From assembly GCA_021823405.1 (NCBI GenBank), contig JAKAOA010000013.1, positions 1 through 36,857 on the forward strand: a DNA stretch of 36,857 bases, given 5' to 3'. The notes beneath the pieces were generated by a model, which was not told where the DNA came from, made no database searches, and saw only the letters and a list, made by a program, of their open reading frames with translations. This document shows, one piece after another, positions 81 to 30,741 of this stretch. This DNA comes from Bacteroidota bacterium. Its GTDB lineage: Bacteria > Bacteroidota > Bacteroidia > JABEUT01. Numbering within the stretch: position 1 is the stretch's first letter; every line of letters begins with the position of its first letter. The position numbers and the translations under genes are program-made.

Positions 81-3000
81 ATGAATCCTCATTTAAGTAA
101 ATGGTTTAATCATGTCTTATGTTTCGGACTTATCATCCTGTCAATTATAGTCAATTTTCCATTACAAGCACAAAATTCTCCCGGTTCTGAAGCCCAACTC
201 ATAAAGGACGCCGACGCCTGTTTTAATAATGATGATTATTCGGATGCATTCCCATTGTATTCGCAGCTTTTAAGTTTATACCCCACAAATCCGAAGTACA
301 ACTACCGGCTGGGAGCATGTATGCTTTTTATAAAAGCCGACAAAGAAAAACCCATTGATTATATAGCTAATGCCGTACATCAACCCGGCGTAGACGCTAT
401 CGCCTGGTATTATCTCGGCAGGGCGTACCATCTAAACTACAAATTCGATGCTGCAATAAGGGCATATAAGCAGTTTGCCCAGATCGCCTCTGCTTCCGAA
501 ATAAAAAAATACCCTGTAGACCATTTGATAGACATGTGCAATAACGGCAAAACACTGCTGAAGAATATGCAAGAACTGGATGTTCTGGTAAAAAAAGAGG
601 TGAATATCTCCGATTATTTTCAGGGCTATGATTTAAGCAATAACGGCGGCAGCGTTATAATAGAACCTGATGATTTTAAAACACGGCTCGATAAAAAGAA
701 AGGCGCCACCTCGGTGATGTATCTCTCGGCAGACAAAAACATCGTATTTTTCTCAAGTTATGGCGATAACGATAAGGACGGAAAAGATATTTATGAGAAA
801 AAACGATTACCTGACGGCAGTTTTGGCAAACCCGTAAATCTTGGCAAGGTGATTAACACTCCATACGATGAGGATTACCCCTTCTACGATGAACCCACGC
901 ATACCCTCTATTTCTGTTCAAAAGGTCATAACAGTATGGGAGGATATGATGTATTTAAATCAAATTTTGACGATGCATCCCAAACATGGTCATCTCCGGT
1001 TAATATGGATTTCCCTATTAATACCCCTGACGATGATATTCTATTTATAGCTGATACGATGAATCAGACCGCATATTTTGCATCCACCAGAGAGAGCCCG
1101 ATGGGTTCAATCGATATTTATAAAATTAAGATTCAGCCCCATCCGCCTGAATTTATCGTTCTGAACGGCATTACATACAGCGATAGCGGATCCGTTATAA
1201 CTTCATCCAGAATTACTGTGAAGGATTTCAAAAGCGACCAGGTGACGGGTATTTATAATTCTTCATCGCAATATGGAACCTACCTGATGAACCTTACCAA
1301 CGGCGGTAAATTCGTTTTTACGGTAGAAACTGAAGGTCATAAGACGCAATCAGCGCCCGTTCTACTACCCCCTGAACCAACAGAGATAACGCTGAAACAA
1401 ACGATTAGTTATGAACCTGGGACTGATAAACTTATTATCAAAAACAACTTCCAGTCAAGCGATTCCGACTATTTGCTGGCGCTTAATTATATTAAGCAAA
1501 AAGCGCAGATGGAAGTGCATACGGATACCGCCTCGCATGCCTTACAGAATAATGCGCAACAGGTCGCCTCGACCGCCGGTGCCAACAGCGCAGCTTCCTC
1601 AAACCAACAGCAACCTGCTGCCGATACAGGAACAAACACTAATGGGAAGAGCTATATACCTGATTTTACGAGTTCATCGAACAACGGAAATCTGACCAAC
1701 AGGCAACTTGTCAAAATTGACTCGGAAGATGCAGGGCAGCAGGAACAAACGGCAAAAAACATGAAAGAAGATGCGGATAAAACAACTTCATTTGCAAATG
1801 ATAAGCTTATGCAGGCGGAAGACCTAAAGGAAAAAGCCCTGCTTTTAGCCGACAGCGCCAATAATATTTCCAATCTTTCTTCAAAAAACGATAGCATTGC
1901 TAAATCTGCCGCCCTTCTCGCCCATGCAAACGAGCTGGAGAAAAAAGCAATGGAGGCATACCAACTTGCCGCCGAGGAGCAAACGGATGCCTCGACGAAG
2001 CAGCAGCAGGCAGATCTAAGCGTCAAGTACTCCATGAAACTGGACTCTGCTTCACGTACATCAGACAATATTAAGGCGATAAAAGAATTACAAAAACAGG
2101 AAACGGAACTGCGATATCAACAACAGTCATCGCCGCCGGCAAAAACCACACCGGCAGACCTCATCCGCCGGCAAGCTGATAACGTAAAACTGGATTCGGT
2201 TCAGCTTGCAAAGCAATCGGAAGAGATTGAGAAGGAAATACCCCAACTTGAGCAACAATCGCAAGGTTACGTAAATCAGGCGCAGACCACGAATAATGCG
2301 CAGGAGAAAATTGCACTGTTGCAACAAGCAAAGGACCTTACTGAAAGTAAAAAACAAAAAGAACGGGAGCTTGCCGACAATGCAATAAGGGAAAAACAAC
2401 TTGGCGAGGAGCATATGCAAACGCTTGCCGCAGCAAATTCAGCCGACAGCGCTAAAAATGCCGTTTCGCCGCAGGGAGTCGCTTCGCAGTTTGCCGACAG
2501 CGCGGGATTGAAGCAGGAAATTGCCGGCTATACTCCCGCTTCCTCAAATGTTTCCGGTTCTACCCAAAATCAACAACCGGAAAACCTTGCATTGACAACC
2601 ACCGTTAATAATAACTCTGCTACTATACAAAACAGCGACAATAATCTACAATCTTCCAATCAGAATATTTCAACAGGTCAAAATGTTCAAACGATTAACA
2701 CGAACGCTCAAAATTCAGGCGTTCAGACAGGTGAGGTATCTGCAAACAGTCAATCGAATAATCCTTCAATTAATCAACAGGGTAAAAACATAAACAGCAA
2801 TAATTCAAGCGGTTCCGATAGCTTAAAACATGCCATACAGAATAGCGGGCAGATGGCTACGGGAACCGCAGATAATGAGACCACACAAAATCAGTCCTCT
2901 TCCGCATCAAGTTCGCCAACAACTCTTTCTACTACTAAGGTCTTTTATTCCGATCCCGGCGCAGGCAAGGCAGGTACTGAAGGAGCAAAACTAATCGCCG

Positions 3001-6000
3001 ATGCCACTATACTTTCGCAAGAGGCAGGCGATGCGCGAAGACAGGCGGAAGAATCAAAAGATACCACCATACAACGTATTCTCTACCACCGGGCTGATTC
3101 ACTGGATAATGTAGGAGATAAAGAAAAGCTGCAAGGGGCAACGGTTTCAGTGATTGCCGACTCTAACCAATACCAGTCCAACGCCCAAAAACTTGGCGCA
3201 TGGAAAACGTACAAGATACATACCGACGATTCGGATAAAATTACCACGGCAAGATTATTAATGGAGGATGGAGGATTTTACTTTACCAAATCGCTTTCGG
3301 AGAAACAGAGGGCAGACAACATGAGCAAATCATATTTAAAGGAAACTTTTATGGAACTCGCCAAACAGGATGTTGAAACAGCTCTGTTAAAGCAGCAAAC
3401 CGCCGAAAACATATATCTTGGATTCAATCCGGCGCTTGCAAACATTAACACCCCGAATCCGGCTAATGCTTCCAATTCTGCTGTAATACAGGCAGAACAA
3501 ACTGTCGCGAACGCTTCACAAAACCCCTCTGGTTCAGAACCGGTTTCTGCAAATAATACAAATCAGCAATTAAACAATGTTAATGGTTCACAAAATCCGG
3601 TAACAGGTGCGGGTCAGAACAACTCTTCATCGATGCAAAACGGGAATAATAATTCGGAAAATACTTCCCCATCCGCCAACAATACAAATACAGGAACGGT
3701 TAACGGTTCACAGAATCAGGTAACTGTTGCGAATCAAAACAACTCTTCATCAATGCAAAACGGGAATAATAATTCGGAAACTACTTCCCCATCCGCCAAC
3801 AATACAAATACAGGAACGGTTAACGGTACAACAAATCAGGTAACTGCATTGGGTCAGAACAACTCTTCATCAATGCAAAACGGGAATAATAATTCGGTAA
3901 CTACTTCCCCATCCGCCAACAATACAAATACAGGAACGGTTAACGGTGCAACAAATCAGGTAACTGCATTGGGTCAGAACAACGCTGTATCAGGGCAGAA
4001 CAGCAATACGCAATCTGCCGCAGGTAACAGCCCACAGAATAATGGAAACGCTTCATTTCAGCAAGCTAAGCGAATAGATTCTGCTCTCTCCGGTTCAAAT
4101 GCAGTAGATACACAGCGACTTGCTTCACTAAACCGGAACATGAATACAACTGTTCCGCAACCCCCCGCCCCTGTCAGCACTCCAACCCTTACTGCATCGC
4201 AGGACAGCAGTGTAACGGCAAGCAGGGCGCTATCAGCATTATCAGTTGCTCCGGCTGCCGATTTAACAGTTACGGTAACAATAAACCATAAATCCAATAT
4301 CAAAGGTTTTGCCAAACTGGAGGAAACAATACCTGATGGTTTCACCGTTCAGCCATTAAAGAAGTCAGGATCTTCCTTTTCGGTTGACAATAATAACGTG
4401 AAATTTGTCTGGTTTACGGTCCCTCCTGAACCCACCTTCACAGTTTCTTATATCCTTACCCCGAAATCCACTACATCCGGAGCACAAACAATCAAAGGAG
4501 AATTTTCTTACCTTATGGATGAGAGCGCGACCTCACTAAACTTGCCTTTAAGTACTGTTCTTGTTCAAAATGGTTCTATGCCCGTTACAGCTAACATTCA
4601 GGAAAATAACGGTGCCCAGAACGGACAGAACAATAGCGTTAGTCAACCGACAAACAATAACCCTCCAACTGCCAGCGCTTCTTCCCAGCAGAATAGCAGC
4701 AACGAAGGCAATGCACAAAGCGGACAGAACAATAGCGTTAGTCAACCGACAAACAATAACCCTCCAACTGCCAGCGCTTCTTCCCAGCAGAATAGCAGCA
4801 ACGAAGGCAATGCACAAAGCGGACAGAACAATAGCGTTAGTCAACCGACGAACAATAACCCTATAACTGCCAACGCTTCATCCCAGCAGAACACCAGCAA
4901 CGAAGGCAATGCACAAAGCGGACAGAACAATAGCGTTAGTCAACCGACGAACAATAACCCAGCAACTTCAAACACTTCAGCCCAGCAGAACACCAGCAAC
5001 GAAGGTAATGCACAAAGCGGACAGAACAATAACGTTAGTCAATCGACAAACAATAACCCTGCAACTGCCAACGCTTCTTCCCAGCAGAACACCAGCAACG
5101 AAGGCAATGCGCAAAGCGGACAGAACAATAACGTTAGTCAGTCGACAAACAATAACCCTGCAACCGCCAACGCTTCATCCCAGCTGAATAGCAGTAACGA
5201 AGGCAATGCGCAAAGCGGACAGAACAATAGCGTTAATCAATCGACAAACAATAACCCTGCAACCGCCAACGCTTCATCCCAGCTGAATAGCAGCAACGAA
5301 GGCAATGCACAAAGCGGACAGAACAATAGCGTTAGTCAGTCGATAAATAATAACCCTGCAACTGCCAACGTTACTGCGCCGCCGACTAATGAGAACAACA
5401 TGCCGGACGCCAACAGTAACAATTCTGAAATAGGAAATAATGCTACTACGGTCTCCATTATCTCCGATGTATTCGAGGAGTTACCGGCATCGCCATATTC
5501 TAAAGCAAAGCCAATACCTGTTAACCCTCCCCTGCCATCCGGTTTAATATATAAGGTACAAGTGGGCGCTTTCAGGAATCCTATTGCTCAAAATTTGTTT
5601 AAAGGGCTTAATCCCATTTCAGGGGAGAAGACAGCAAACGGGCTGACACGATATACTGCAGGTCTTTTTAAAGAATACGGCGGTGCGAAAGATGCGGAGG
5701 ATAAAATTCATCAACTCGGCTACCGCGATGCCTTTATAGTGGCGTTCCTGAATGGTAAACGCATACCTCTTGCCCAAGCCGAAGGCGTTCCGGCTACTAC
5801 TTCGAAAAGTAATCCTGTTGCTGCAGTAAATCCGCCGGCTGAAGCGGCGACAAACGGGGTGCCTGCAGCGCCATCCACATCGGTTAAGGAGGTAAAGGGT
5901 TTGTTTTATACGGTGCAGGTTGGGGCATTCGAACATCCTGTTTCTTCCTCTCGTCTGTATAATTTAACCCCATTATTCTCCTACAATGCCACTAACGGCT

Positions 6001-6575
6001 ATATACGCTATAACTGCGGCATTTACAGCACGGCAGTTAAGGCAGGCGATGCGAAACGAGTCATCATAGGAAACACTCCTGTTAAAGATGCCTTTGTTAC
6101 GGCATATTACAACGGCGAAAGAATTAATATTGATAAAGCAGGGCAGCTGTTAAAAAACGATTCAGCTGTAATACCCCAAGATCAGAACCTTGACCGGATG
6201 CCGCCGTTAGGAAATAACAACGGATTGCAACAAAATGCGCCACTACCTTCAGAAAACCCGCAACCTGCCGTAATCCCTTCGTCTAACGCCTCAACAGGGA
6301 AGGTTATATTTAAGGTACAGGTGGGTGCATACGCCGGCTCGATACCCATTGATATGGCGAATAACCTTTTGAAAATCTCCAATCAGGGTTTGCAATCGCA
6401 TAAGGAAGCAAACGGCATTACCACTTACACAGTAGGAGAATATCCGGACTATACCTCCGCCAACCTCCTGAAGAAGGAATTAATAAAGGGCGGATTTCCC
6501 CAGTCATTCATTGTTGCTTATAGCAATGGCAAAAAAATAACCCTTCGCGAGGCGCAGGCATTGCTAAATAAATAG
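81..6575 (+). CDS. Giant PorE-like TPR–PD40 protein with three C-terminal SPOR domains
   Basis: This 2164-residue protein is probably periplasmic or outer-membrane associated. I chose ATG 81 because it starts a clean signal peptide (short basic start, hydrophobic core, ending in LQAQ). The TTG at 24 would add 19 polar residues before it. Domains in order: TPR-like helices (about 40-160); PD40 propeller blades (about 200-350); a carboxypeptidase-regulatory-like beta fold (about 357-437); an Ala/Glu/Lys-rich, probably coiled-coil stretch (about 550-795); a second helical stretch (about 965-1115); Asn/Gln/Ser-rich repeats of 40 residues (about 1168-1304); a beta-sandwich-like domain (about 1393-1495); repeats of 33 residues (about 1508-1770); and SPOR domains at about 1820, 1940 and 2075, each opening with a VQVGAF/Y motif. 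TPR-PD40-CRD is the layout of the T9SS protein PorE, which ends in an OmpA-like domain. Here SPOR domains, known to bind denuded glycan strands, take that place. A structural tether is inferred; the exact role is unknown. Confidence 0.9.
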   Translation: MNPHLSKWFNHVLCFGLIILSIIVNFPLQAQNSPGSEAQLIKDADACFNNDDYSDAFPLYSQLLSLYPTNPKYNYRLGACMLFIKADKEKPIDYIANAVHQPGVDAIAWYYLGRAYHLNYKFDAAIRAYKQFAQIASASEIKKYPVDHLIDMCNNGKTLLKNMQELDVLVKKEVNISDYFQGYDLSNNGGSVIIEPDDFKTRLDKKKGATSVMYLSADKNIVFFSSYGDNDKDGKDIYEKKRLPDGSFGKPVNLGKVINTPYDEDYPFYDEPTHTLYFCSKGHNSMGGYDVFKSNFDDASQTWSSPVNMDFPINTPDDDILFIADTMNQTAYFASTRESPMGSIDIYKIKIQPHPPEFIVLNGITYSDSGSVITSSRITVKDFKSDQVTGIYNSSSQYGTYLMNLTNGGKFVFTVETEGHKTQSAPVLLPPEPTEITLKQTISYEPGTDKLIIKNNFQSSDSDYLLALNYIKQKAQMEVHTDTASHALQNNAQQVASTAGANSAASSNQQQPAADTGTNTNGKSYIPDFTSSSNNGNLTNRQLVKIDSEDAGQQEQTAKNMKEDADKTTSFANDKLMQAEDLKEKALLLADSANNISNLSSKNDSIAKSAALLAHANELEKKAMEAYQLAAEEQTDASTKQQQADLSVKYSMKLDSASRTSDNIKAIKELQKQETELRYQQQSSPPAKTTPADLIRRQADNVKLDSVQLAKQSEEIEKEIPQLEQQSQGYVNQAQTTNNAQEKIALLQQAKDLTESKKQKERELADNAIREKQLGEEHMQTLAAANSADSAKNAVSPQGVASQFADSAGLKQEIAGYTPASSNVSGSTQNQQPENLALTTTVNNNSATIQNSDNNLQSSNQNISTGQNVQTINTNAQNSGVQTGEVSANSQSNNPSINQQGKNINSNNSSGSDSLKHAIQNSGQMATGTADNETTQNQSSSASSSPTTLSTTKVFYSDPGAGKAGTEGAKLIADATILSQEAGDARRQAEESKDTTIQRILYHRADSLDNVGDKEKLQGATVSVIADSNQYQSNAQKLGAWKTYKIHTDDSDKITTARLLMEDGGFYFTKSLSEKQRADNMSKSYLKETFMELAKQDVETALLKQQTAENIYLGFNPALANINTPNPANASNSAVIQAEQTVANASQNPSGSEPVSANNTNQQLNNVNGSQNPVTGAGQNNSSSMQNGNNNSENTSPSANNTNTGTVNGSQNQVTVANQNNSSSMQNGNNNSETTSPSANNTNTGTVNGTTNQVTALGQNNSSSMQNGNNNSVTTSPSANNTNTGTVNGATNQVTALGQNNAVSGQNSNTQSAAGNSPQNNGNASFQQAKRIDSALSGSNAVDTQRLASLNRNMNTTVPQPPAPVSTPTLTASQDSSVTASRALSALSVAPAADLTVTVTINHKSNIKGFAKLEETIPDGFTVQPLKKSGSSFSVDNNNVKFVWFTVPPEPTFTVSYILTPKSTTSGAQTIKGEFSYLMDESATSLNLPLSTVLVQNGSMPVTANIQENNGAQNGQNNSVSQPTNNNPPTASASSQQNSSNEGNAQSGQNNSVSQPTNNNPPTASASSQQNSSNEGNAQSGQNNSVSQPTNNNPITANASSQQNTSNEGNAQSGQNNSVSQPTNNNPATSNTSAQQNTSNEGNAQSGQNNNVSQSTNNNPATANASSQQNTSNEGNAQSGQNNNVSQSTNNNPATANASSQLNSSNEGNAQSGQNNSVNQSTNNNPATANASSQLNSSNEGNAQSGQNNSVSQSINNNPATANVTAPPTNENNMPDANSNNSEIGNNATTVSIISDVFEELPASPYSKAKPIPVNPPLPSGLIYKVQVGAFRNPIAQNLFKGLNPISGEKTANGLTRYTAGLFKEYGGAKDAEDKIHQLGYRDAFIVAFLNGKRIPLAQAEGVPATTSKSNPVAAVNPPAEAATNGVPAAPSTSVKEVKGLFYTVQVGAFEHPVSSSRLYNLTPLFSYNATNGYIRYNCGIYSTAVKAGDAKRVIIGNTPVKDAFVTAYYNGERINIDKAGQLLKNDSAVIPQDQNLDRMPPLGNNNGLQQNAPLPSENPQPAVIPSSNASTGKVIFKVQVGAYAGSIPIDMANNLLKISNQGLQSHKEANGITTYTVGEYPDYTSANLLKKELIKGGFPQSFIVAYSNGKKITLREAQALLNK
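3581..3990 (+). repeat. Tandem array of 120-bp units (40 residues) inside the giant protein
   Basis: About three and a half copies with an exact 120-bp period. Matching blocks begin near 3601, 3721, 3841 and 3961. Each unit encodes an Asn/Ser/Thr-rich segment containing NNSSSMQNGNNNS and SPSANNTNTGTVNG. The copies are nearly identical at nucleotide level, including synonymous positions, which points to recent duplication. The period is a multiple of three, so gain or loss of a unit keeps the frame. Confidence 0.9.
4603..5390 (+). repeat. Tandem array of about eight 99-bp units (33 residues)
   Basis: The block 'acgaaggc' or a one-base variant recurs at 4702, 4801, 4900, 4999, 5098, 5197 and 5296, always 99 bp apart. 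Each unit encodes an Asn/Gln/Ser-rich, almost uncharged segment containing AQSGQNNSVSQ and TNNNP. The first two units are essentially identical and later ones differ at a few positions, as expected from expansion by slippage or unequal recombination. The array lies between a beta-rich domain and the SPOR domains and probably acts as a flexible spacer. Confidence 0.92.
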
Positions 6576-6617
6576 TCATTAACTAATTTCCTTCTTGAAC
6601 CGCTAATTCGGTAATTG

Positions 6618-7259
6618 CTAAAATTTAAAGTTAACGCCGAGGGAAAGATTTGTATAACCATATCCCAGTTCCGCCCATATCCCGATTTTGGGGCTAACAT
6701 AATACCGGCAGCCCAAAAATAAACTGATGGCGGTATAGCTGTTGTATGAGCCATTATATACGTTATAAAATGGATCATTCGGATTATTCCAACCCGGGTC
6801 ATTGCTGGAACTGCTGTAATTTATAAAATAATAACCAATCATAATTCCTGCGTAGGGGTCAAATTTTGCATTGTTTGTAAAATTCCAATGATAGGCGCCT
6901 CGCAAGCCAATAATAAAATAAGACCAATCCTGTTTATAAAAGTAGTTGGAGTATGGGTCGGTGTAAGTATAGCCAATATCTTTATAAGACAGCAGTCCAC
7001 CTATGCTGATTGTTCCCGGACCTACTTTACCGTTCCCAATAATTCCATTTTCATAGGATAGTACAATATTGGGGGATGATGAATAACCGGGTCCCCACCA
7101 ACCGTAAGTGCCGCCGATACCAACGCCAATGGCAAGCGCGTTCGTCCCTTGCGGAAAACTTTCTTCACCTGCGCTGGCACCCTGCGCATCGTGCTGTGCA
7201 TTGGCGCTATTGGTAATAAGAAGCGGGGATATTGCGAGAGCTAAAAGTAGTTTTTTCAT
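6618..7259 (-). CDS. Outer-membrane beta-barrel protein
   Basis: This 213-residue protein starts with a clear Sec signal peptide (MKKLLLALAI... ending ANAQ). The rest consists of alternating aromatic, glycine-rich strands typical of small outer-membrane barrels. It ends in the strand LSLGVNFKF, with the terminal Phe that is usual for substrates of the barrel-assembly machinery. It resembles the next gene (7393-8256) in several places: an early GVG strand, a PNIVLSYENGI-like strand, a 'PYAG..IGY' strand and the final strand. The two are therefore probably diverged duplicates. A promoter box lies 33 bp upstream, so it may be transcribed on its own. I cannot assign a substrate or function. Confidence 0.85.
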   Translation of the reverse strand: MKKLLLALAISPLLITNSANAQHDAQGASAGEESFPQGTNALAIGVGIGGTYGWWGPGYSSSPNIVLSYENGIIGNGKVGPGTISIGGLLSYKDIGYTYTDPYSNYFYKQDWSYFIIGLRGAYHWNFTNNAKFDPYAGIMIGYYFINYSSSSNDPGWNNPNDPFYNVYNGSYNSYTAISLFLGCRYYVSPKIGIWAELGYGYTNLSLGVNFKF

Positions 7260-7392: not shown

Positions 7393-8256
7393 TTAGAACT
7401 TAGCAGCTAAACCGAGGTTAAAAATAGCGCCGAACAAGCCATGCCAGCCGCCATCAACCCATGCACCGAAGTTATTCGAAAACCAAATTTTTGTGCCGAA
7501 GTATATTCCCCAGCAAGGCAATCCGCCTGCTATCGAACCCGCAGCTACATTCCCATCCCAAGTTGTATTCGGGTCATTTGTTGACCAACCAAAAGTAATT
7601 GGCTCATATCCAATGCGAAAACCCAGATAAGGTTGAAAAACGCCGCTGGTAACAAAATAATAATCGCCGGTAACAGCAATTTCCATTCCGCTTAACGATA
7701 GTTTATCAGTCCAATTATATACCTGTCCGATATTATGAGGATAAAATCCTGCAGTATTATCTGTACTCCCGTTCAAGTTCATGGTAACGCTGCTATATAC
7801 AAATGCTAATCCAAATGTAAAGTTAGAACTCAATCCCCTCTCGTATTGAATGGTAATTGGCAACACTGATGAACCAGAATAACCCGCCGTAGTATAGGCA
7901 GATGCCATGAGGCTTGTTAAGCTAAGAAATCCTACTCCTGCGGATATTATGTTCTTACCTTTCAAATCCCCATCATCGCCGCTTCCTCCACTATGGTGTG
8001 GTGGCGGAGCCATATCATCAAGATTATCGCTTATATCAGAATTACCGGATACCGAGGTCATCACCACAGGAGTAAAGCATGTATTCGTAATCAACATGCC
8101 GTTAAATGAGATATTCTGAAAGGTCTTCAGATTGTCCGGTGTATTAAGGATGGTCTTTATGCGCTCGGCATTCTGGTTAGGCAGAATTGTACCGTATGCC
8201 GCAGGTGCAGCTAAAATAGCAGTACAAAATAGCAATTTTTGAAGTTTTGATTTCAT
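7393..8256 (-). CDS. Outer-membrane beta-barrel protein (paralogue-like)
   Basis: This 287-residue protein has a signal peptide (MKSKLQKLLFCTAILAAPAA...). An N-terminal stretch of about 75 residues follows, containing a Pro/His/Gly/Asp-rich linker, MAPPPHHSGGSGDDGD. The remainder is a barrel ending in NLGLAAKF. The barrel part aligns by eye with the protein of 6618-7259, but the linker region has no counterpart there. It has its own -7 box upstream and a hairpin terminator downstream, which suggests a single-gene transcript. The family is recognised only as a generic outer-membrane barrel. Confidence 0.83.
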   Translation of the reverse strand: MKSKLQKLLFCTAILAAPAAYGTILPNQNAERIKTILNTPDNLKTFQNISFNGMLITNTCFTPVVMTSVSGNSDISDNLDDMAPPPHHSGGSGDDGDLKGKNIISAGVGFLSLTSLMASAYTTAGYSGSSVLPITIQYERGLSSNFTFGLAFVYSSVTMNLNGSTDNTAGFYPHNIGQVYNWTDKLSLSGMEIAVTGDYYFVTSGVFQPYLGFRIGYEPITFGWSTNDPNTTWDGNVAAGSIAGGLPCWGIYFGTKIWFSNNFGAWVDGGWHGLFGAIFNLGLAAKF

Positions 8257-14181: not shown

Positions 14182-15984
14182 ATGGAACCAACCAGAATAT
14201 TTGACATTCCCCGCCTGCAACAACAGAAATACCCGAAAACAGATGCCATTGCCACCAAAGTGGCGGGCAAATGGACACTTATAAGCACCGATACCTATAT
14301 TAAAACTTCGGAACAGGTGGCTTGCGGAATGTTAGATCTTGGGATTAAAAAAGGAGATACTATTGCAACCATTTCATCAACTAATAGAAGCGAGTGGAAT
14401 TATATAGACATGGCAATACAGATGACCGGCGCAATTCATGTGCCTGTGTACCCGACCATCAGCGACAGCGATTTTCGTTTTATCTTTAATGAAGCGGGCA
14501 TTAAATGTATTTTTGTATCGGATGAAGGACTCTTTAAACGAGTCGTCTCAATATGCAATGACATCCCAACTTTGGAAGCTATCTATACCTTTAATGAGGT
14601 GAAAGGAGCAAAATCGTGGAAAGACATACTCCCGATGGGGAATAAACCGGGGCTCGCACAAGCGCTCGAGGAGGTAAAAAACACTATAACCTCCGACGAT
14701 ACCGCAACAATAATTTATACCTCTGGAACCACCGGAATACCTAAAGGCGTTATGCTGTCGCATCAAAATATATTAAGCAACGTAATCGCTTCGCATCCTC
14801 TTGTACCGGTAAGTTATACCGACAAGGCATTAAGTTTTCTTCCCCTATGTCACATATATGAGCGCATGTTAAATTATCTATATCAGTATTCGGGTATTTC
14901 CATCTATTATGCCGAAAATTTTGATACTATCGGAGACAATCTTAAGGAAGTAAAACCCGCTATATTTGTGGCTGTACCGAGGGTATTAGAGAAAATATAT
15001 AGCAAAATAATGGCGGTTGGCAGTCAGCTTACGGGCATAAAAAAATCATTATTCGACTGGTCGCTTGATCTTGGTGCAAAGTATGAACATTATCATGCCA
15101 ATGGGGTCTGGTACGATATGAAATTGTTTGTCGCCCGCAAGCTGGTATTCAGTAAATGGAAAGCCGCGGTAGGCGGTAAGTTAAAGGTAGTTGTTTCGGG
15201 CGGTGCAGCATTGCAGCCGAAGATTGCCCGTCTATTCTGGGCGGCGGGAATACCTGTTTTAGAGGGATACGGGCTTACCGAAACTTCACCTGTAATAGCT
15301 GTAAATAACCTTATCCCGGGCAATTTATGCTTTGGTACTGTAGGCCCTGTACTTCCGGGCGTTGAGGTGAAGATTGCAGACGACTGTGAAATACTATGCA
15401 AAGGACCCAACATTATGAAGGGTTATTACAAACATCAGGATACCACAGCCGAAGCAATTAGTTCCGGAGGATGGTTTCATACAGGAGATATAGGGATGAT
15501 GGTGGATAATAAATTCCTAAAGATAACTGATCGCAAAAAAGCCCTGCTTAAAACATCGGGCGGAAAATACATTGCGCCGCTGCCCATTGAAAGCGCCCTT
15601 AAGGAATCGCCTTATATTGAACAGGTAATGGTGATAGGCGATGGGCAAAAGTTCACGGCTGCCCTAATAGTTCCTAACTTTCAGAACCTTGAAAAATGGT
15701 GTGAAGCAAAAAAATTAAAATTCGCCGGTCATGCTGAAATGATTACATCGGAACAGATACTGGCGCTTTTCAATAGTGAGATTGAGAAATACAACAAAAA
15801 TTTCGGACATATAGAACAGGTAAAACGCTTTGAACTCATAGCGAATGAATGGACTGTAGAGGGTGGTGAGATTACTCCCAAGCTTGACATAAAACGAAAG
15901 GTTATAATGCAAAAATATAATGCTCTGGTTGACAAAATATATAACAGCATTCCGCCTCCGGAAATCAAGAATCCGTCAATCTGA
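14182..15984 (+). CDS. Long-chain acyl-CoA synthetase (AMP-forming, FadD type)
   Basis: This 600-residue member of the adenylate-forming family activates fatty acids to acyl-CoA using ATP. It has the P-loop-like motif TIIYTSGTTGIPKGVMLSHQ, the YGLTETSP motif, HTGDIG, and the C-terminal hinge region DRKKALLKTSGGKYIAPLPIE. The insertions and the roughly 600-residue length fit the bacterial long-chain (FAA1/FadD15-like) group. It is transcribed alone, divergent from doxX. Its last 9 bases overlap the convergent membrane-protein gene at 15976-17478. The exact chain-length preference cannot be read from sequence. Confidence 0.93.
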   Translation: MEPTRIFDIPRLQQQKYPKTDAIATKVAGKWTLISTDTYIKTSEQVACGMLDLGIKKGDTIATISSTNRSEWNYIDMAIQMTGAIHVPVYPTISDSDFRFIFNEAGIKCIFVSDEGLFKRVVSICNDIPTLEAIYTFNEVKGAKSWKDILPMGNKPGLAQALEEVKNTITSDDTATIIYTSGTTGIPKGVMLSHQNILSNVIASHPLVPVSYTDKALSFLPLCHIYERMLNYLYQYSGISIYYAENFDTIGDNLKEVKPAIFVAVPRVLEKIYSKIMAVGSQLTGIKKSLFDWSLDLGAKYEHYHANGVWYDMKLFVARKLVFSKWKAAVGGKLKVVVSGGAALQPKIARLFWAAGIPVLEGYGLTETSPVIAVNNLIPGNLCFGTVGPVLPGVEVKIADDCEILCKGPNIMKGYYKHQDTTAEAISSGGWFHTGDIGMMVDNKFLKITDRKKALLKTSGGKYIAPLPIESALKESPYIEQVMVIGDGQKFTAALIVPNFQNLEKWCEAKKLKFAGHAEMITSEQILALFNSEIEKYNKNFGHIEQVKRFELIANEWTVEGGEITPKLDIKRKVIMQKYNALVDKIYNSIPPPEIKNPSI

Positions 15985-17478
15985 ATGGTTCGTTTTCCCT
16001 TCCGGTGCGAATAACCGCCCCCTTATTCTCCATAGGGGATAAACTGCAAGCAAAAGCATAAAAGGGTACGCAGGAACAAAATATCGTTTTTCGCATGCGC
16101 CGAGAATCACAGGATGTATTAAAATGGTGTACACCACTATCCCTATCGGCAGAACTATAAGGAAATTTCTGACACTTTCCTTAGAAAGCATCAAACAGCC
16201 CACCGTTCCAAAGATCAGTACAAACCAATAAAAAAGAGAATAAAAACCTTTTATACACAGTCGGTATAGCCCCAAATGATTCACAGAAGCGGTAAATAGG
16301 TTATTCGTACCCGAATGCAAAAGGAACTCCTTAGTTCGTATAATAGGCGCTATTACATAATACAAAAAGGGTTTCTCTTCCTTTACAGAATGGGCATAAA
16401 GCAAGCATTTATTACGTATTGTTTCAAGTTCCGGCTTCAATTTAGCAGAATCCGCGTCCTTATTCTTAATCGCGGTTACATAGTTTTTTAACTGGCTTCT
16501 CAATAACACCAGTGAGTCATAATTGAACTTTGAGGTATAAATATACCCCGGTAACGACACCTTGACATTGTGCATTTCGGATGGCAGTCCGTCATCCAGA
16601 CCGAACCAGCGTATTACAGCATGCGGTTCAAAATATTGGTCAGTGCCTCCCCAGCTATTAACAAATGTGAAAAGCGGTCCCCAATATGAGTTTTCAATTC
16701 CCGGATATAAAAGGGTTCTGGTTACCGGTAAAAATTTACTGTATTTGAGATAATTTCTTCCTATCCATAACCCATCGCACAAAATAATAGGAAGCAGTAA
16801 AACAATAATTGTTCGAGAGACCTTCTTAAATGTAAGCGTTTTTTTAAGGTAGAGGAAAATAACAACACCGAATAAAAGATATAAAGGAAAAAAGACAGGG
16901 CGCATAAATATCACCCAGGTAAGAAAAATACCTGAAAAGACCAGAAACTGCCCCCGCCCCGACTCATTGGTCAATCCTTTTACAAGAAAGAAGACGGAGA
17001 ATATTAGAAATGAAGTGGTAAAACTTTCGGTAAGGATAAAAGTATCATACATATTGGAATAGGTACTTAATGCAAACAGATAGAAAGTGAGATAGAACAG
17101 GAAATCAGAGCGAAAAATATATTTAGCGGTAAGCGCGAGGCAATATACCGAAAACGCGGCGGCGGTAAGCTGCAGCAGGATTAGGATATTGTACGCCACA
17201 GGCATTCCGAACATTAAGGCAAAGGGTAAATAGATAACCCCATAACCTGGCATCCTGAAATCGGGATTATAGGCATGAAAATGAATCAGGTTCTCAATAG
17301 GAGAGATATAACTCCACGTATCGCCCTCGCTTACGCCCCAGAATCCATCTACTCTGTGCGGAAGCCAGCGCGTTAAACGCAAAGCGAAAATTACACCTTT
17401 GAACAACAATGCCAGAATTAACCAAAATTGCCATTGTAATGGGTTTCTTAGTAAATTCCTTCTGATAAATTGTCTCAA
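15976..17478 (-). CDS. GT-C-fold multi-pass membrane glycosyltransferase-like protein
   Basis: This 500-residue protein has about ten or more hydrophobic helices. Near the N-terminus the motif EGDTWSY (D53) and the loop PDFRMPGYGV (about 73-81) resemble the catalytic Asp and R-x-PGYP loop of ArnT/PMT-type transferases, which use polyprenyl-phosphate sugars. The start is TTG 17478: an in-frame stop lies 36 bp upstream and the first ATG inside would delete the first helix. The substrate is unknown. It lies 43 bp after the LOG-family gene on the same strand and converges on the acyl-CoA synthetase gene, overlapping it by 9 bp. Confidence 0.75.
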   Translation of the reverse strand: MRQFIRRNLLRNPLQWQFWLILALLFKGVIFALRLTRWLPHRVDGFWGVSEGDTWSYISPIENLIHFHAYNPDFRMPGYGVIYLPFALMFGMPVAYNILILLQLTAAAFSVYCLALTAKYIFRSDFLFYLTFYLFALSTYSNMYDTFILTESFTTSFLIFSVFFLVKGLTNESGRGQFLVFSGIFLTWVIFMRPVFFPLYLLFGVVIFLYLKKTLTFKKVSRTIIVLLLPIILCDGLWIGRNYLKYSKFLPVTRTLLYPGIENSYWGPLFTFVNSWGGTDQYFEPHAVIRWFGLDDGLPSEMHNVKVSLPGYIYTSKFNYDSLVLLRSQLKNYVTAIKNKDADSAKLKPELETIRNKCLLYAHSVKEEKPFLYYVIAPIIRTKEFLLHSGTNNLFTASVNHLGLYRLCIKGFYSLFYWFVLIFGTVGCLMLSKESVRNFLIVLPIGIVVYTILIHPVILGACEKRYFVPAYPFMLLLAVYPLWRIRGRLFAPEGKTNHSD

Positions 17479-21180: not shown

Positions 21181-22473
21181 CTATTTTACGAACATCATCA
21201 GTTCGTCTCCCGGTTTTATAATTAAGGTATCACTGATGTTGTTCCACGCCCTTATTTGGTCAACCGTTACTCTGAACTTTTCGGCAAGGCACTCGATTGT
21301 CTCCCCGCTTTGCACAATGTGAACTATTATTTTGGGTTCTGAAGTGTCAGGCGTTGACGCGCCGGTAATCGACTTAACGCTGCATTGCGCCGGCGTTACT
21401 TTAGCGGAATCTATTTCTACTTCGGTTTTTGCATTGCCGCCGGTATTTAACGGCTGAACGGATTCAAGAGAATCGTTGTACACTATGTCTTCGCCGAGTT
21501 CTTCAAAAGGAACGTTTTTTCTCGGCAGTGTAATAACATATTCTGTCCCGCCTGTATTATTCAGTTTGTCACTCATTAGCCACGGATTAAAGAACTTGAG
21601 GGTATGAAAATTTATTCCATAATTTTCGGCTAAGGAGGCAAGTACCACTGTTGAATCTACAGTTATGGTATAAGTTGGTAAGGGTTGATAGTAATCCGCC
21701 TTGTTCAAGTAATATCCATACCAATCGGGATGGGCAGTTAACTGTTTGAGTGCCAGAATACGGTATATATATCGGGAGGTTTCAAGATTGAGTGACAGGT
21801 TATAATAGTTGGATTCTCTTTCGCGTTCTACATCTTTTCTCAAACCTTCAATACCCATGTTATACGAAGCCGCAACGAGCGTCCAGTTATGAAAAACATC
21901 ATACGCATCCTTAAAATAGCTGCATGCCGCCTCGGTACTTCTCTCAAGATTATATCGTTCATCCACTTCCTTGTTAATTTTCAGATTATATGCAAGCGCA
22001 GTACTTTTCATTAGCTGCCAGAACCCTGCCGCCCCGGCAGGCGATACTTTGTACCCGAAACCGCTTTCAGCCATTGCAAGAAATTTAAAATCATCGGGAA
22101 TTGAGTATTTTTTCAATACCCTCTCTATAACCGGAAAGTAGCGCGATGAGCGCTTTAACATTAATAACGACTGCGACTGCCAGTATGTATTTACCAAAAT
22201 CTCCTGTTCCATGCCCTCTTTTACACCCAGATGATTCATTGGAACTTCTTCTCCGGCAAAATTCATGGTGTCGGGTAACGGAACATCATATACCTTAAAC
22301 CTTTGGTTGAAAGGGATATCATCGGTAGTCAGATTTTTTGAAAAACTTAATGTTTCTATCAGGAGTACAATTAAAACCATAATCCCCGCGGCATAGAGAA
22401 TGCTTTTAACGCCTTTCGACAATTTAACGGGAGCGCTTACGCGAATTCTCTTGGAAAATTTATGACCCTTCAT
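21181..22473 (-). CDS. Membrane-anchored lytic transglycosylase with C-terminal LysM (MltD-like)
   Basis: This 430-residue protein has a basic N-terminus and one membrane helix (about 24-43), placing the rest in the periplasm. The SLT domain (about 110-280) carries the catalytic Glu in AMAESGF (E136) and the conserved GAAGFWQLM and SYNMG motifs. A LysM domain (about 380-430, [16 protein letters not shown]) would bind peptidoglycan. Such enzymes cleave the glycan strand to 1,6-anhydro ends. It overlaps the WecA-like gene by 14 bp and is followed by uvrA after 3 bp, so the three genes are likely co-transcribed. Denuded or modified glycan ends made by amidases and such enzymes are what SPOR proteins recognise elsewhere. 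Confidence 0.92.
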
Positions 22474-23557
22474 GAACCCTCTTCTTTATCCTGGTAACCA
22501 CAAAAAAAGAAATAAGCGATAATATGAAAAAACTCCCAAAAATGAGGCAATCCGGCATCGTCCATATCTCTATATATTTATTTATGATTACCACGCATAT
22601 AAAACATATTGCCGAATAACCGGCATAAACAAGAGCAATCCGTGGCTCTTTAATGCCAAGATAAAAAAGATGGTGGGTGGTATGGTCCTTCCCGCCGATG
22701 AAAGGTGAAGCTCCTTTCAACAGCCGGTTAATGAAAACCACAGTGGTATCAATTACAGGAAGTGCAAAGGTGAGAAGTACTGAAATGAAGTTCTTGGTTA
22801 ATAATATTCCTTGAACTGGTAGGTGAGCATTGTCTGGCGCCATTGGAGTATTCCATAAAAACAAGATGCTTACCGCCGAAAGAAATGCGCCAAGAAATTG
22901 GGTGCCTGTATCTCCCATGAACATTTTGGATGGATACCAGTTAAAAAGCAAAAAGGCGAATACGGCGGAAAGCATGCCCAATACCATAGTAACGAAAATG
23001 GAGGTGGCGCTATGTCGGATAAGTAAAACAGAAGTAATTGAGGCAAGAGCCCCTATTACAGCCACTGAAGAAACAGCATCCATATTATCAAGAAGATTGA
23101 TGGAATTCATTAGTCCTACCACCCACAGCATAGTGAGACCGTAATTAAGATACATATTCGGAAAAATATTGATATAAATACCACTGAAGATAAGTATAAA
23201 ACCACAACATACCTGCGATGAAAATTTAAGCATCGGGTTGGTATCATACGCATCATCAGCCAACCCCATTAGGAATGCAACAGTGCAGACGCACAGTAAT
23301 CCTATTGTTTGTGAATGTAGCAGCACAGTGGTAGGTTGAAAATAAAGGGAGTACACAATAAGTGAAACCAGAAAAGCGATATAAAAAGTAATTCCTCCCA
23401 AAGCCGGCTTGGAAGTTGTATTCCATCTTATTATTTTTTCATCTTTACGAATACCAAGGGTACCGGCAAATTTCAGGAATAAGCTGTTCAGCAATATGGA
23501 TAAGCCAAAAACTACAATGAAAAATGTGAAATAAAACAGGGGCAGGTTGAATGTCAT
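22460..23557 (-). CDS. WecA/MraY-family undecaprenyl-phosphate glycosyl-1-phosphate transferase
   Basis: This 365-residue polytopic membrane protein has about eleven hydrophobic segments. The motifs are GLADDAYD (about 92-99), NLLDNMDAVSS (usually NxxDNMDGLA, with Ala in place of the Gly here), MGDTGTQFLG and the HTTHHL loop, which together define the WecA/TagO branch. It would transfer a sugar-1-phosphate from a UDP-sugar to undecaprenyl phosphate, starting polysaccharide or O-antigen-like glycan synthesis. It follows the exopolysaccharide genes on the same strand after a 137-bp gap that holds a dispersed repeat. The sugar is unknown. Confidence 0.9.
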   Translation of the reverse strand: MTFNLPLFYFTFFIVVFGLSILLNSLFLKFAGTLGIRKDEKIIRWNTTSKPALGGITFYIAFLVSLIVYSLYFQPTTVLLHSQTIGLLCVCTVAFLMGLADDAYDTNPMLKFSSQVCCGFILIFSGIYINIFPNMYLNYGLTMLWVVGLMNSINLLDNMDAVSSVAVIGALASITSVLLIRHSATSIFVTMVLGMLSAVFAFLLFNWYPSKMFMGDTGTQFLGAFLSAVSILFLWNTPMAPDNAHLPVQGILLTKNFISVLLTFALPVIDTTVVFINRLLKGASPFIGGKDHTTHHLFYLGIKEPRIALVYAGYSAICFICVVIINKYIEIWTMPDCLIFGSFFILSLISFFVVTRIKKRVHEGS

Positions 23558-23580
23558 AAAAGGTATCAGCGTCTTGATTC

Positions 23581-23638
23581 TTGTAAACCAATGCTTTGAA
23601 TTAGTGAATTATAGCGTATTCAATCGCGGTCGGTATAA
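23581..23638. repeat. Dispersed palindromic repeat, copy B
   Basis: This element shares ACCRATGCTTTGAATT.GTG.ATT and TTCAAT.G..GTCGGTATAA with copy A at 12627-12697 (about three mismatches in each arm). It lacks the central 20-bp palindrome of copy A. Its arms are inverted (TTGAAT/ATTCAA, and a decayed outer end against TCGGTATAA). It fills most of the spacer between the rmlC-like and WecA-like genes. Confidence 0.7.
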
Positions 23639-23694
23639 AAAGCAAATTTACGCTAATTTTCTCTTGTCCTTAACTCCTTTGCCCCATTCAAATT

Positions 23695-24237
23695 CTAAAA
23701 CATAGTTTGGAAATCAGCGAAACGCTTCCCTTTAAGATCCTTTTCGGAAAGTACAGGATGCTGAATGTTCCAATGAATCCCTATATCGGGGTCGTTCCAT
23801 ACAATACAATCTTCCGACTGCTTATTGTAAAAATTCGAGCATTTATAAAAGAATACAGTATTATCTTCGAGGGTTGCAAAACCATGTGCAAATCCGGCAG
23901 GAATATAGAAAATGGTATGGTTGCCCGAATTTAACTCTATTCCGAAATGCTTGCCGTAAGTAGGTGAATGCTTACGTATATCAACTGCCACATCCCAAAC
24001 AGCGCCTTGGATAACTCGCACCAGTTTTGCCTGCGCAAAGGGCGGATTCTGGAAATGCAACCCTCTTATTACACCCTTTTGCGATAACGATTGGTTATCC
24101 TGAACAAACTCGTCCATGATGCCAACTGCATGAAACGCCATTTTATTGTATGGTTCGTAAAAATATCCCCTTTCGTCCCGAAATACCTTTGGCTGTATTA
24201 TTGCCAGTCCTTCTATATTGGTACGCAAAACTTGCAT
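23695..24237 (-). CDS. rfbC: dTDP-4-dehydrorhamnose 3,5-epimerase
   Basis: This 180-residue cupin enzyme (RmlC/RfbC) performs the third step of dTDP-L-rhamnose synthesis. It has the active-site His in VIRGLHFQ (H61), the VWDVAVDIRKHSPTYGK strand and IPAGFAHGF, all typical, and its length is standard. It is the last gene before the repeat at 23581 and lies 20 bp after wzc. RmlA, RmlB and RmlD are not in the window, so they must be elsewhere, or this member may serve another deoxysugar. Confidence 0.95.
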   Translation of the reverse strand: MQVLRTNIEGLAIIQPKVFRDERGYFYEPYNKMAFHAVGIMDEFVQDNQSLSQKGVIRGLHFQNPPFAQAKLVRVIQGAVWDVAVDIRKHSPTYGKHFGIELNSGNHTIFYIPAGFAHGFATLEDNTVFFYKCSNFYNKQSEDCIVWNDPDIGIHWNIQHPVLSEKDLKGKRFADFQTMF

Positions 24238-24257
24238 ATTTAATACATTTAAGATTA

Positions 24258-26669
24258 TTAATACGCCTGATAATAGCTGCCCGTGCCATAGTGGGTTCCA
24301 TAGCCGTAAGAAGACATCTTCTGTTTCAGATCCATTCCGTTAAGGATAATGGAGAGGCTATGGAAGTTGTTCTCAAAATAAAGCCGGTCTATAAAATGAA
24401 TAAACTCCCTTTTAGAATAGCCGGCGCGCATTACATATAAAGGATAATCTGCCTTCTGGAGCATAGCAATACCGTCTGTAACCAGGCCAACCGGTGGATT
24501 ATCAATTATAATGGTATCGTACTGCAGTTTTAGCTTCTCCAGAATCTGATCCATCTCTTTACTTATAACAAGTTCGGAAGGGTTAGGTGGAATGGGTCCG
24601 GCAGTAATTATATTCAATTGGTCCGACTCCGTTTTTTGAACCACTTCGTCAATCAAATGTTTTCCTATTAAGAGCGTACTCATCCCTTTAGAGTTATCCA
24701 ATCCAAGAACTGTATGGATTCTTGGCTTTCGCATATCTAAATCCAGAATAATCACCCGTTTGCCCGAATAAGCTATAATGCCTGCCAGATTGATAGCGAT
24801 AAATGTTTTGCCTTCACCCGGAATGGTAGATGTAATAGCTATTATTTTGGGGTTATTGCTGCTTGCCCTTATAAATTGTAATTTAGTGCGGAGAGCTCTG
24901 AACGATTCGGCGAGAATTGATTTAGGAAAGTGATTTATAATGAGTTGCGATACCGGTATCTCCTTATTATAAAATGGAACAATTCCCAGAATGCTTACAG
25001 CGCTTTGGGTAAGCCGCTCAATTTCTTCAACAGAATTTACTTCGTTATAGAAGAGATAAATAATAAAAAGTAGCAGGATTGATATGCTTGTCGATATCAG
25101 GGCGGATACTCCGAGGGTAGATGACTTTTTCGGCGTCACCGGCATCTGTTCAGGAATTGCCGACTCAAGCACCTGACTTTGCGAAACATAACCCGCCTTT
25201 TCCAAAGCAAATTCTGTCTTTTTATCTAACAGGTCATCATAATATTTTTCATCAATGGAGAAAAGATGCTGCAGCCGCAGATACTCGATATTATTGGCAG
25301 AAGTGCCCGGACCAAGATATTGCGCCTTGATTCTGTCCGCTTCAACCTCAAGGTCTTCCTTCTTTGCATTTAGTCGTTGAATAGTAGCATCCAGCGATTG
25401 TAATATTAACTTATATTGGTCTTCTATCTGTTGATTCAAATGAAGCATTTCCTGATTGTTAGCCGTAACATCGTACGATTCTTGCTGCTTTGCGGTTATA
25501 AGATGATGCAATGAATTTAAATAATCATCAATTGTTGCACCATAATCATAGCCGCTTAAAAGACCTATTGTATTAGTAGGGTCAATATCCTTTTTTCCCT
25601 CTATTTCCTTGCGTATATAGCCCAACAGCTTTTCTTCTTCGGCAGTTGCGGCAACCTGGTCGTCCAGCGAGAACAATCTGCTGATGTTTTCCTTCGCATA
25701 CTCCACCGCCTCATCAGTTTTGTTGCCTTTATGCATCGTATCCAGTTGTTCTTCAGACGATTTTATTCTTCCATATACTGTATTCAACTGTTCGTCTATA
25801 AAATTCAATACATTTTCTGCGCTTTTCCTCCGGTTTTCAAGATCGAATTCAATATATCCTTCGGCCAGTTTATTCGCAACATCTGCGGCTATCGCATCCG
25901 ACGGGTCGGTGCATGAAATACTGATAGTTTTCGCTTCCGGGTTAAGCAATTTTACTGTAATGCGGGAGTAAAATTTATTTGCTAAAGCAATACTGTCGTT
26001 TATCCTAAAAAACCAAGGGTTTTTCTTAACCTTGCTTGTCATGCTTTCTATTTCACGCCTGTCTTCAAAATGCACCTTTAACCTTCCCCGGTGGGTGTCC
26101 GCCCATCTGTCTTCTTTAAAGGGTATCGAGTATGCAGAATCATTGATATTATAGGATATAAAACCACCCGTGTCGATTTTCACATTCAAATAAATTTTAA
26201 TACCCGCAAGCGCTTTCATTGCATTGCTGTCGGGTATTACCGAATAGGGTATCTTTTTGTATAGCTGATGCGTTTTGAATGTTCCCTCATTGTAATAGGT
26301 TACCCTCATCGGAAGCATATTGAAGATATGCTCGAGAAAAAGTTTGGAATGAATCAGTTCAACAGCCGATGCCAATTCATCTTCATCGGGTTGAAATAAA
26401 CCATTGTTATTTTGAATAACCTTATTCGCATTGTTCTCGTAGCTTAACTGAATGGTAGTACTTTCTTCGTACCAGCGTTGGGCGTATCGAAGATACAATA
26501 AGGCGGTAAGAAATCCGACTAAAAAAATAAGTCCGACCCATTTCAGGTTCTTCCGTGTTATGAGTGCGAAAAGTGCGAGGTCGAACTCCTCGCTAAAGGT
26601 ACTTAAATTCTTAGGTTTTCTTTTCCTCAAATTGTCCGAAATAGAAGAACCCTGTGATGTTTCGGGCAT
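24258..26669 (-). CDS. Wzc-like polysaccharide co-polymerase/tyrosine autokinase
   Basis: This 803-residue inner-membrane protein has a Wzz-type chain-length domain between two membrane helices (about 38-60 and 508-530), with a long coiled-coil periplasmic part. The cytoplasmic BY-kinase domain follows, with Walker A TIPGEGKT (about 616-622), a Walker A' (ILDLDMRKPR) and a Walker B (TIIIDNPPVG). The C-terminus is a tyrosine cluster (SYGYGTHYGTGSYYQAY) for autophosphorylation. It controls export and length of capsule or exopolysaccharide with the Wza gene just upstream (2-bp gap). No Wzb phosphatase gene is present nearby. Confidence 0.95.
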   Translation of the reverse strand: MPETSQGSSISDNLRKRKPKNLSTFSEEFDLALFALITRKNLKWVGLIFLVGFLTALLYLRYAQRWYEESTTIQLSYENNANKVIQNNNGLFQPDEDELASAVELIHSKLFLEHIFNMLPMRVTYYNEGTFKTHQLYKKIPYSVIPDSNAMKALAGIKIYLNVKIDTGGFISYNINDSAYSIPFKEDRWADTHRGRLKVHFEDRREIESMTSKVKKNPWFFRINDSIALANKFYSRITVKLLNPEAKTISISCTDPSDAIAADVANKLAEGYIEFDLENRRKSAENVLNFIDEQLNTVYGRIKSSEEQLDTMHKGNKTDEAVEYAKENISRLFSLDDQVAATAEEEKLLGYIRKEIEGKKDIDPTNTIGLLSGYDYGATIDDYLNSLHHLITAKQQESYDVTANNQEMLHLNQQIEDQYKLILQSLDATIQRLNAKKEDLEVEADRIKAQYLGPGTSANNIEYLRLQHLFSIDEKYYDDLLDKKTEFALEKAGYVSQSQVLESAIPEQMPVTPKKSSTLGVSALISTSISILLLFIIYLFYNEVNSVEEIERLTQSAVSILGIVPFYNKEIPVSQLIINHFPKSILAESFRALRTKLQFIRASSNNPKIIAITSTIPGEGKTFIAINLAGIIAYSGKRVIILDLDMRKPRIHTVLGLDNSKGMSTLLIGKHLIDEVVQKTESDQLNIITAGPIPPNPSELVISKEMDQILEKLKLQYDTIIIDNPPVGLVTDGIAMLQKADYPLYVMRAGYSKREFIHFIDRLYFENNFHSLSIILNGMDLKQKMSSYGYGTHYGTGSYYQAY

Positions 26670-26671
26670 TA

Positions 26672-27433: not shown

Positions 27434-27463
27434 ATTTTGGAAATGTATCTGTTTCAATCCTTA

Positions 27464-27471
27464 CAAAAGTA
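27464..27471 (-). promoter_or_regulatory. -7 box upstream of wza
   Basis: The minus strand reads TACTTTTG (TAnnTTTG match) in the 45-bp spacer between the glycosyltransferase stop and the wza ATG. It would give a leader of about 25 nt and allow wza-wzc-rfbC to be transcribed apart from the upstream genes. Confidence 0.4.
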
Positions 27472-27478
27472 ATAAAAA

Positions 27479-28684: not shown

Positions 28685-28807
28685 GAATGCCTAAACTTAC
28701 AATTTTTTCAGAATGAATGATGATATTTTTGTCCTTATCCGCCCCGAAACAGTTCACGCTCTATTAAGAAAGTTCAGGGGGTAATACTTTTTGCTATGTT
28801 CCAACTT

Positions 28808-30709: not shown

Positions 30710-30733
30710 TGTCCGATAGAATTGAATATTCTT

Positions 30734-30741
30734 CAAAAATA
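30734..30741 (-). promoter_or_regulatory. -7 box for asnB and the exopolysaccharide genes
   Basis: The minus strand reads TATTTTTG (TAnnTTTG match). A TTTG lies 24 bp further upstream as a candidate -33 element. The predicted leader to GTG 30709 is about 20 nt. Confidence 0.5.

Follow-up and report, generated by a model that had tools for sequence, protein, structure and literature searches.

The window, a stretch of 36,857 nucleotides that comprises the entire contig G000:C9 of a Bacteroidota bacterium, carries a giant gene whose deduced product joins a head, composed of a TPR domain, a short PD40 propeller region and a carboxypeptidase-regulatory-like domain (CRD), to a very long spacer and a C-terminal series of three SPOR domains. 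The conserved ends of this protein, together with the residues retained in the SPOR domains, make it reasonably probable that it serves as a periplasmic scaffold or tether anchored in the peptidoglycan. Each of the domains is known already, as are TPR-PD40-CRD heads with a peptidoglycan-binding end, and it is the giant SPOR-ended form that appears to be new: it was not found described in the literature searched, and a search for SPOR proteins in connection with Bacteroidetes, Flavobacterium, the type IX secretion system (T9SS) or gliding returned nothing relevant. The features assigned to the gene are as follows.

81 to 6575, forward strand: whole coding sequence, 2164 aa (frames of relatives, 1640-3137 aa)
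81 to 170, forward strand: type I signal peptide without lipobox, aa 1-30, read from the sequence
189 to 560, forward strand: TPR domain, aa ~37-160 (Pfam TPR_14, AlphaFold2 helices, VIA-align)
582 to 1178, forward strand: short PD40 propeller region, aa ~168-366, predicted (PD40 in 18 of 22 orthologues, AlphaFold2 strands)
1206 to 1448, forward strand: carboxypeptidase-regulatory-like domain, aa ~376-456 (CarboxypepD_reg, AlphaFold2 strands)
1701 to 2450, forward strand: helical module 1, aa ~541-790, weakly conserved (alignment occupancy 0.9-1.0, profile)
2451 to 2945, forward strand: Asn/Gln/Ser-rich tract 1 (composition)
2946 to 3425, forward strand: helical module 2, aa ~956-1115 (alignment, profile)
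3426 to 4232, forward strand: Asn/Ser/Thr-rich tract 2 with tandem array (composition, repeats)
4233 to 4580, forward strand: Ig-like domain, aa ~1385-1500 (phmmer)
4581 to 5465, forward strand: Asn/Ser/Gln-rich tract 3 with tandem array (composition, repeats)
5541 to 5795, forward strand: SPOR 1, aa 1821-1905, signature Q1827 and R1857 (Pfam SPOR, family profile 106 bits)
5898 to 6155, forward strand: SPOR 2, aa 1940-2025, ligand Gln and Arg retained (family profile 95 bits, AlphaFold2)
6300 to 6569, forward strand: SPOR 3, aa 2074-2163, Gln retained, ligand Arg replaced by Thr (family profile 88 bits, VIA-align)

The coding sequence is one intact open frame with an ATG at position 81, located 80 bp downstream of the contig start that forms base 1 of the window; the stop-to-stop frame begins at TTG 24. 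The signal peptide ends in FPLQA-QN, and no lipobox was found at this place in the window protein or in the orthologues inspected. Separate genes joined by repeats or by a missed stop, that is, an artefact of assembly or gene calling, might be suspected from two tandem arrays within the frame and from the position of the contig start immediately upstream. The periods of both arrays are, however, multiples of three, and the frame of head, spacer and SPOR domains recurs in dozens of independent assemblies. An artefactual fusion was thus ruled out by the relatives with the same frame, and its probability is regarded as negligible.

With respect to the tail, a search of the full protein with the Pfam SPOR model (PF05036) gave a single above-threshold match at aa 1824-1887 (26.2 bits, cut-off 21), while the tail searched alone reached 35.6 bits; the same model matched all 20 of 20 aligned tails (best 1.5e-16). 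The three bit scores listed above were obtained with a family SPOR profile to whose training set the window domains belonged. The AlphaFold2 model of the tail consists of three alpha/beta domains connected by low-confidence linkers. A VIA-align comparison of the SPOR 3 model returned the SPOR domain of CwlC (Z 7.9), the complex of the RlpA SPOR domain with denuded glycan (Z 7.3), DamX (Z 5.9) and DedD (Z 5.4), and the SPOR fold of domains 1 and 2 was read from the sequence and the AlphaFold2 secondary structure.

The conserved residues Q270 and R309 of RlpA contact the glycan, and R285 of FtsN is the equivalent of R309 (PMC6895207). A HMMER alignment to FtsN (1UTA) located the ligand positions at the Gln of a VQxG motif and four residues before a later conserved Gly; since FtsN R285 corresponds to RlpA R309, the Arg at the second position was equated with the latter, a comparison that is indirect because the profile search returned CwlC and FtsN but no RlpA. 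Among the 81 complete orthologues with at least two SPOR domains, the Gln is present in 81 of 81 and an Arg or Lys in 80 of 81 cases in SPOR 1, and both positions are retained in 81 of 81 cases in SPOR 2. The last domain of proteins with at least three SPOR domains retains the Gln in 44 of 58 cases and Arg or Lys in 4 of 58. SPOR 1 and 2 therefore look competent, whereas SPOR 3 is probably degenerate for the RlpA type of ligand mode. A preliminary description of this DNA had predicted three SPOR domains; all three were recovered by Pfam, family profile and AlphaFold2 taken together, but the third lacks the ligand Arg in 54 of 58 proteins. It had also proposed a tether to specific peptidoglycan sites, and this would be the most economical role, because the Gln/Arg signature of SPOR 1 and 2 is almost invariant in the 81 orthologues. 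On the basis of this anatomy and of the signature residues, anchoring in the peptidoglycan through SPOR 1 and 2 is considered likely.

An enrichment of the protein at the septum, as suggested by the SPOR biology of other phyla, has a nearly even chance of being correct. In a special form of the scaffold reading, the giant protein would be specific for division, with the SPOR domains gathering it at the septum, where the head would recruit outer-membrane proteins or hydrolases so as to coordinate outer-membrane invagination in the way of Tol-Pal or FtsN. The two SPOR domains with retained ligand signature are consistent with this idea, as are an amidase with the same SPOR type in the window genome and the fact that SPOR proteins of other bacteria work at septa (PMC6895207). 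However, no divisome genes adjoin the giant gene and the septal preference is drawn from other phyla, so that a role restricted to division is conceivable, with the balance tilting against it.

The head searched alone matched TPR_14 with 28.6 bits (Pfam cut-off 23.5), and its structural model yielded Z-scores of up to 14 against TPR proteins in VIA-align. The Pfam PD40 model remained sub-threshold on the window protein (11 bits, E=0.44; gathering score 20.9 bits), but it matched 18 of 22 aligned orthologous heads at E<=0.01 (best 1.6e-11), and CarboxypepD_reg matched 10 of the 22. The AlphaFold2 model of the head (mean pLDDT 82) comprises the TPR helices, followed by a stretch of strands and a closing beta domain. 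A comparison of the whole head model with the PDB returned mostly TPR proteins and failed to pick out the beta-propeller part; a new fold is not claimed. The three-domain head named in the preliminary description was confirmed, with the qualification that its PD40 region was detected by HMM search in the orthologues and stayed below threshold in the window protein itself; structure prediction reproduced the TPR helices, strands in the predicted propeller region, the beta domain and the three tail domains. Three PD40 motifs were counted in the window head, whereas OmpA-ended paralogues from this genome have as many as five; the tally is approximate, since it was made with a rough regular expression that missed motifs in several sequences. 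From the usual roles of TPR and PD40 domains, and by analogy with CHU_0125 and PorE, the head probably binds a protein partner; a conserved outer-membrane gene that could name this partner was not found beside the giant gene.

The spacer comprises 1346 residues in the window protein and 786-2248 residues (median 1233) in 81 complete orthologues. An alignment of 24 sequences revealed conserved ends and a drifting middle; in blocks of 25 residues, the identity to the window protein amounts to ~0.2-0.7 within aa 50-475 and within the SPOR domains. The preliminary description had assumed a giant disordered spacer of about 1400 residues with helical and Asn/Gln/Ser-rich sequence. Its size and composition proved to be approximately right, but the spacer is not disordered throughout, since two helical modules and an Ig-like domain had been overlooked. 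Among the 63 long orthologues that had not been used for training, profiles recognised helical module 1 in 45 and helical module 2 in 33. Module 2 is moreover homologous to part of a 365-aa protein of the window genome (G000:C167) that combines this helical segment with one SPOR domain. Two tandem arrays are located in frame within the polar tracts, one at 3579-3983 in tract 2 (120-bp period, 3.4 copies) and one at 4622-5370 in tract 3 (99-bp period, 7.6 copies).

A 469-aa Ig-Ig-SPOR protein encoded on G000:C10 provides, with its second Ig domain, the best match to the Ig-like domain (phmmer E=9e-34), and none of the 108 other giant proteins compared yielded a match. Two SPOR proteins encoded in one genome seem to have exchanged sequence recently, the domain having apparently passed as a copy from the C10 gene into the spacer of the window lineage. 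Charged residues make up a median of 30% of the orthologous spacers versus 14% of the window spacer, of which Asn, Gln, Ser and Thr account for 48%; the enrichment in Asn, Gln and Ser is therefore most pronounced in the window lineage. The contour length of the spacer is estimated at ~480 nm and a random coil of the same size at ~20-27 nm, which is of the order of the periplasm. These estimated dimensions would allow a loose reach, not a rigid spacing.

The order of the head domains had led to a comparison with PorE, a TPR-WD40-CRD-OmpA lipoprotein that is essential for the T9SS and binds a peptide fragment of peptidoglycan (PMC7192894). The PorE model (NF052230) scored 85.3 bits on the giant protein against a cut-off of 600, over model positions 286-485 only, so that the alignment is limited to the last propeller blades and the CRD. 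The CHU_0125 model (NF053607) scored 94.2 bits over 211-426, with a cut-off of 620. A separate PorE-type gene with an OmpA end is present in the window genome (G000:C145); it reached 532 bits, which is below the cut-off of 600, and the next-best score was 289 bits. A search of the giant protein for the OmpA_C domain of PorE gave no OmpA match, the tail being of the SPOR type. In a maximum-likelihood tree of the propeller-CRD region, 15 giants were placed on one side of a branch with support values of 96/86, and the PorE-type gene and all OmpA-ended or short SPOR-ended paralogues on the other side. Membership of PorE was rejected on account of the score, the separate PorE-type gene and the separate clade; judged by these sequence comparisons, the giant protein is a family of its own, and the postulated kinship with PorE is not supported.

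PorE-type genes were detected in 165 of 198 sampled genomes, with and without a giant gene. The two genes coexist in most genomes, and a replacement of PorE by the giant protein, or a conversion of the one into the other, was rejected. A T9SS component, in which the giant protein would act as a PorE-like subunit placing the translocon or motor on the peptidoglycan, could be argued for with the common head order, the weak match to the PorE model and the T9SS (SprA) of the window genome. Against it stand the large distance from the PorE cut-off, the PorE-type gene of the genome itself, the separate clade of the giant heads, a gene neighbourhood devoid of por and gld genes and the frequency of SprA and PorE-type genes in genomes lacking the giant. 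SprA was found in 191 of 198 genomes irrespective of the giant gene; since it is nearly universal in the class, co-occurrence with the T9SS is uninformative and was rejected as evidence. A T9SS function is accordingly regarded as improbable.

The same architecture had been expected in other Bacteroidota, and it was found there. The search of named GTDB genomes gave 589 matches, of which the best 80 were evaluated; of the 60 relatives in this set with a frame that does not run off a contig, 58 carry 2-4 C-terminal SPOR domains. These 80 loci belong mostly to Flavobacteriales (Crocinitomicaceae, Cryomorphaceae, Salibacter and Brumimicrobium) and otherwise to Bacteroidota bins. The giant gene is present in 101 of 198 genomes that sample the class Bacteroidia evenly. 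About 14 of these 101 genomes encode a head orthologue with no clear SPOR series at the tail, and SPOR binding is therefore not universal to the family. The three loci inspected (L064, L066, L070) encode heads with long charged coiled-coil spacers and one degenerate SPOR-like end or remnant devoid of the VQxG motif, representing natural tail-loss variants. The frames of three further relatives with no detected SPOR domain (L072, L121, L151) are short. A SPOR domain was likewise not found in other parts of L121 and L151, but the L072 gene of genome G047 has a tail match downstream of its short frame, which suggests a frame break in this giant gene.

The gene neighbourhood was evaluated with single queries, and the resulting counts are lower bounds. 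The plsY gene is located within 400 bp upstream in at least 26 of the 76 loci that have sufficient flanking sequence, a gene for a ~1500-aa protein lies upstream in no fewer than 42 such loci, and a gene for an M48 peptidase lies downstream in at least 30 of 55 loci. The link to por and gld genes suggested in the preliminary description was not borne out, as none were found among the conserved neighbours, which indicate that the giant gene is inherited vertically and in stable chromosomal surroundings. The plsY gene was looked for in the window genome, but no copy was found; it probably lies in an assembly gap, because only 80 bp separate the giant gene from the contig start. Additional observations concern other parts of the window. 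Two short exported proteins with no Pfam match, which resemble small outer-membrane barrels, are encoded just downstream on the reverse strand (6618-7259 and 7393-8256), and a 500-aa reverse-strand frame at 15976-17478 has no Pfam match whatever. The region 22460-30736, likewise on the reverse strand, is an exopolysaccharide export locus encoding a Wzz/BY-kinase, a Wza-like protein, glycosyltransferases, an RmlC-type epimerase and an asparagine synthase, and it adjoins a gene for an SLT-LysM lytic transglycosylase (21181-22473).

A search of the window genome with the tail profile located other carriers of this SPOR type. They comprise an N-acetylmuramoyl-L-alanine amidase identified by its sequence (C96), a 751-aa beta-barrel protein with three SPOR domains encoded beside the Ig-Ig-SPOR protein (C10), two TPR-PD40-CRD-SPOR proteins (C171 and C40) and the helical SPOR protein of C167. 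The adjacent C10 genes are located at ~39.1-42.9 kb (L163:3095-4501 and 4608-6860, forward strand), and the 751-aa product appears as an OmpA-like barrel with SPOR as its wall-binding end. The gene pair recurs in L167, L168 and L169, with an added thrombospondin-3-like calcium-motif linker in the relatives in L168 and L169. A TPR-PD40-CRD-OmpA-SPOR protein from another family (L173:2420-5164; G076:C77) contains both peptidoglycan-binding types, and frames of similar size with SPOR-profile matches occur in other genomes of its family. The median number of tail-profile matches is 6 per giant-bearing genome, the match of the giant itself included, versus 1 in genomes lacking the giant; the co-occurrence follows the phylogeny, for which this count is uncorrected. 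The same heads and barrels are found with SPOR instead of OmpA, which shows that Bacteroidota can exchange the peptidoglycan-binding end as a module.

A general envelope spacer, with SPOR domains that bind peptidoglycan anywhere and a head that binds a barrel, would staple the outer membrane to the wall in the manner of OmpA or Pal. This possibility is in line with head relatives such as CHU_0125, the loss of which impairs outer-membrane integrity (PMC5891637), and with the same-genome barrel that ends in three SPOR domains in the expected place of OmpA. However, ~1350 residues far exceed the need of a staple and SPOR instead of OmpA implies a restricted ligand, which makes a general spacer rather unlikely. 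As a tentative speculation, the amidase, the beta-barrel, the Ig protein, the PD40 proteins and the giant might form a hitherto undescribed SPOR-based anchoring set that performs OmpA/Pal-type wall attachment in a large part of the Bacteroidia and links it to the denuded glycan of the septum; the giant would then be a long-range hub coupling outer-membrane components to division.

The preferred reading remains that of a Sec-exported, soluble periplasmic scaffold of Bacteroidia. The first two C-terminal SPOR domains, and to a lesser extent if at all the third, would grip glycan strands and anchor the protein in the peptidoglycan, with preference for sites that have been stripped of stem peptides by amidases, mainly the division site. 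The head would hold its partner either within the periplasm or on the periplasmic side of the outer membrane, and the partly helical, partly disordered spacer would provide a long and sequence-tolerant reach. The attachment of the outer membrane to the wall and its inward pull at division are little understood in Bacteroidota. The giant protein represents a concrete, testable candidate in this respect: a conserved, apparently undescribed protein of 1,600-3,100 residues with predicted glycan-binding ends that occurs in roughly half of the genomes sampled from the class.

Among characterised proteins, CHU_0125 of Cytophaga hutchinsonii possesses the closest head by profile score (94 bits versus 85 for PorE); it likewise combines a TPR-PD40 head with a peptidoglycan-binding end, but has 656 aa and an OmpA end. 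PorE (PG1058) of Porphyromonas gingivalis shares with the giant protein the head of TPR, PD40/WD40 propeller and CRD followed by a peptidoglycan-binding C-terminus. It differs as an outer-membrane lipoprotein of ~670 aa with a propeller of ~270 aa, an OmpA_C end and an essential role in the T9SS, whereas the giant protein has fewer PD40 motifs by the rough count, no lipobox, the long spacer and SPOR domains. The giant may act like CHU_0125 or PorE with SPOR in place of OmpA, a change that would favour denuded glycan at the septum. FtsN, DedD and DamX resemble it in the flexible linker that precedes a C-terminal SPOR domain and in the Gln/Arg ligand signature. These proteins are anchored in the inner membrane and contain one SPOR domain each, whereas the giant is predicted to be soluble and contains a TPR-PD40 head and three SPOR domains. 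The 690-aa protein of G000:C171 and the 915-aa protein of G076:C77 differ in having no giant spacer, one SPOR domain and heads outside the giant clade, but share with the giant protein the same head type and a C-terminal SPOR domain of the same subtype.
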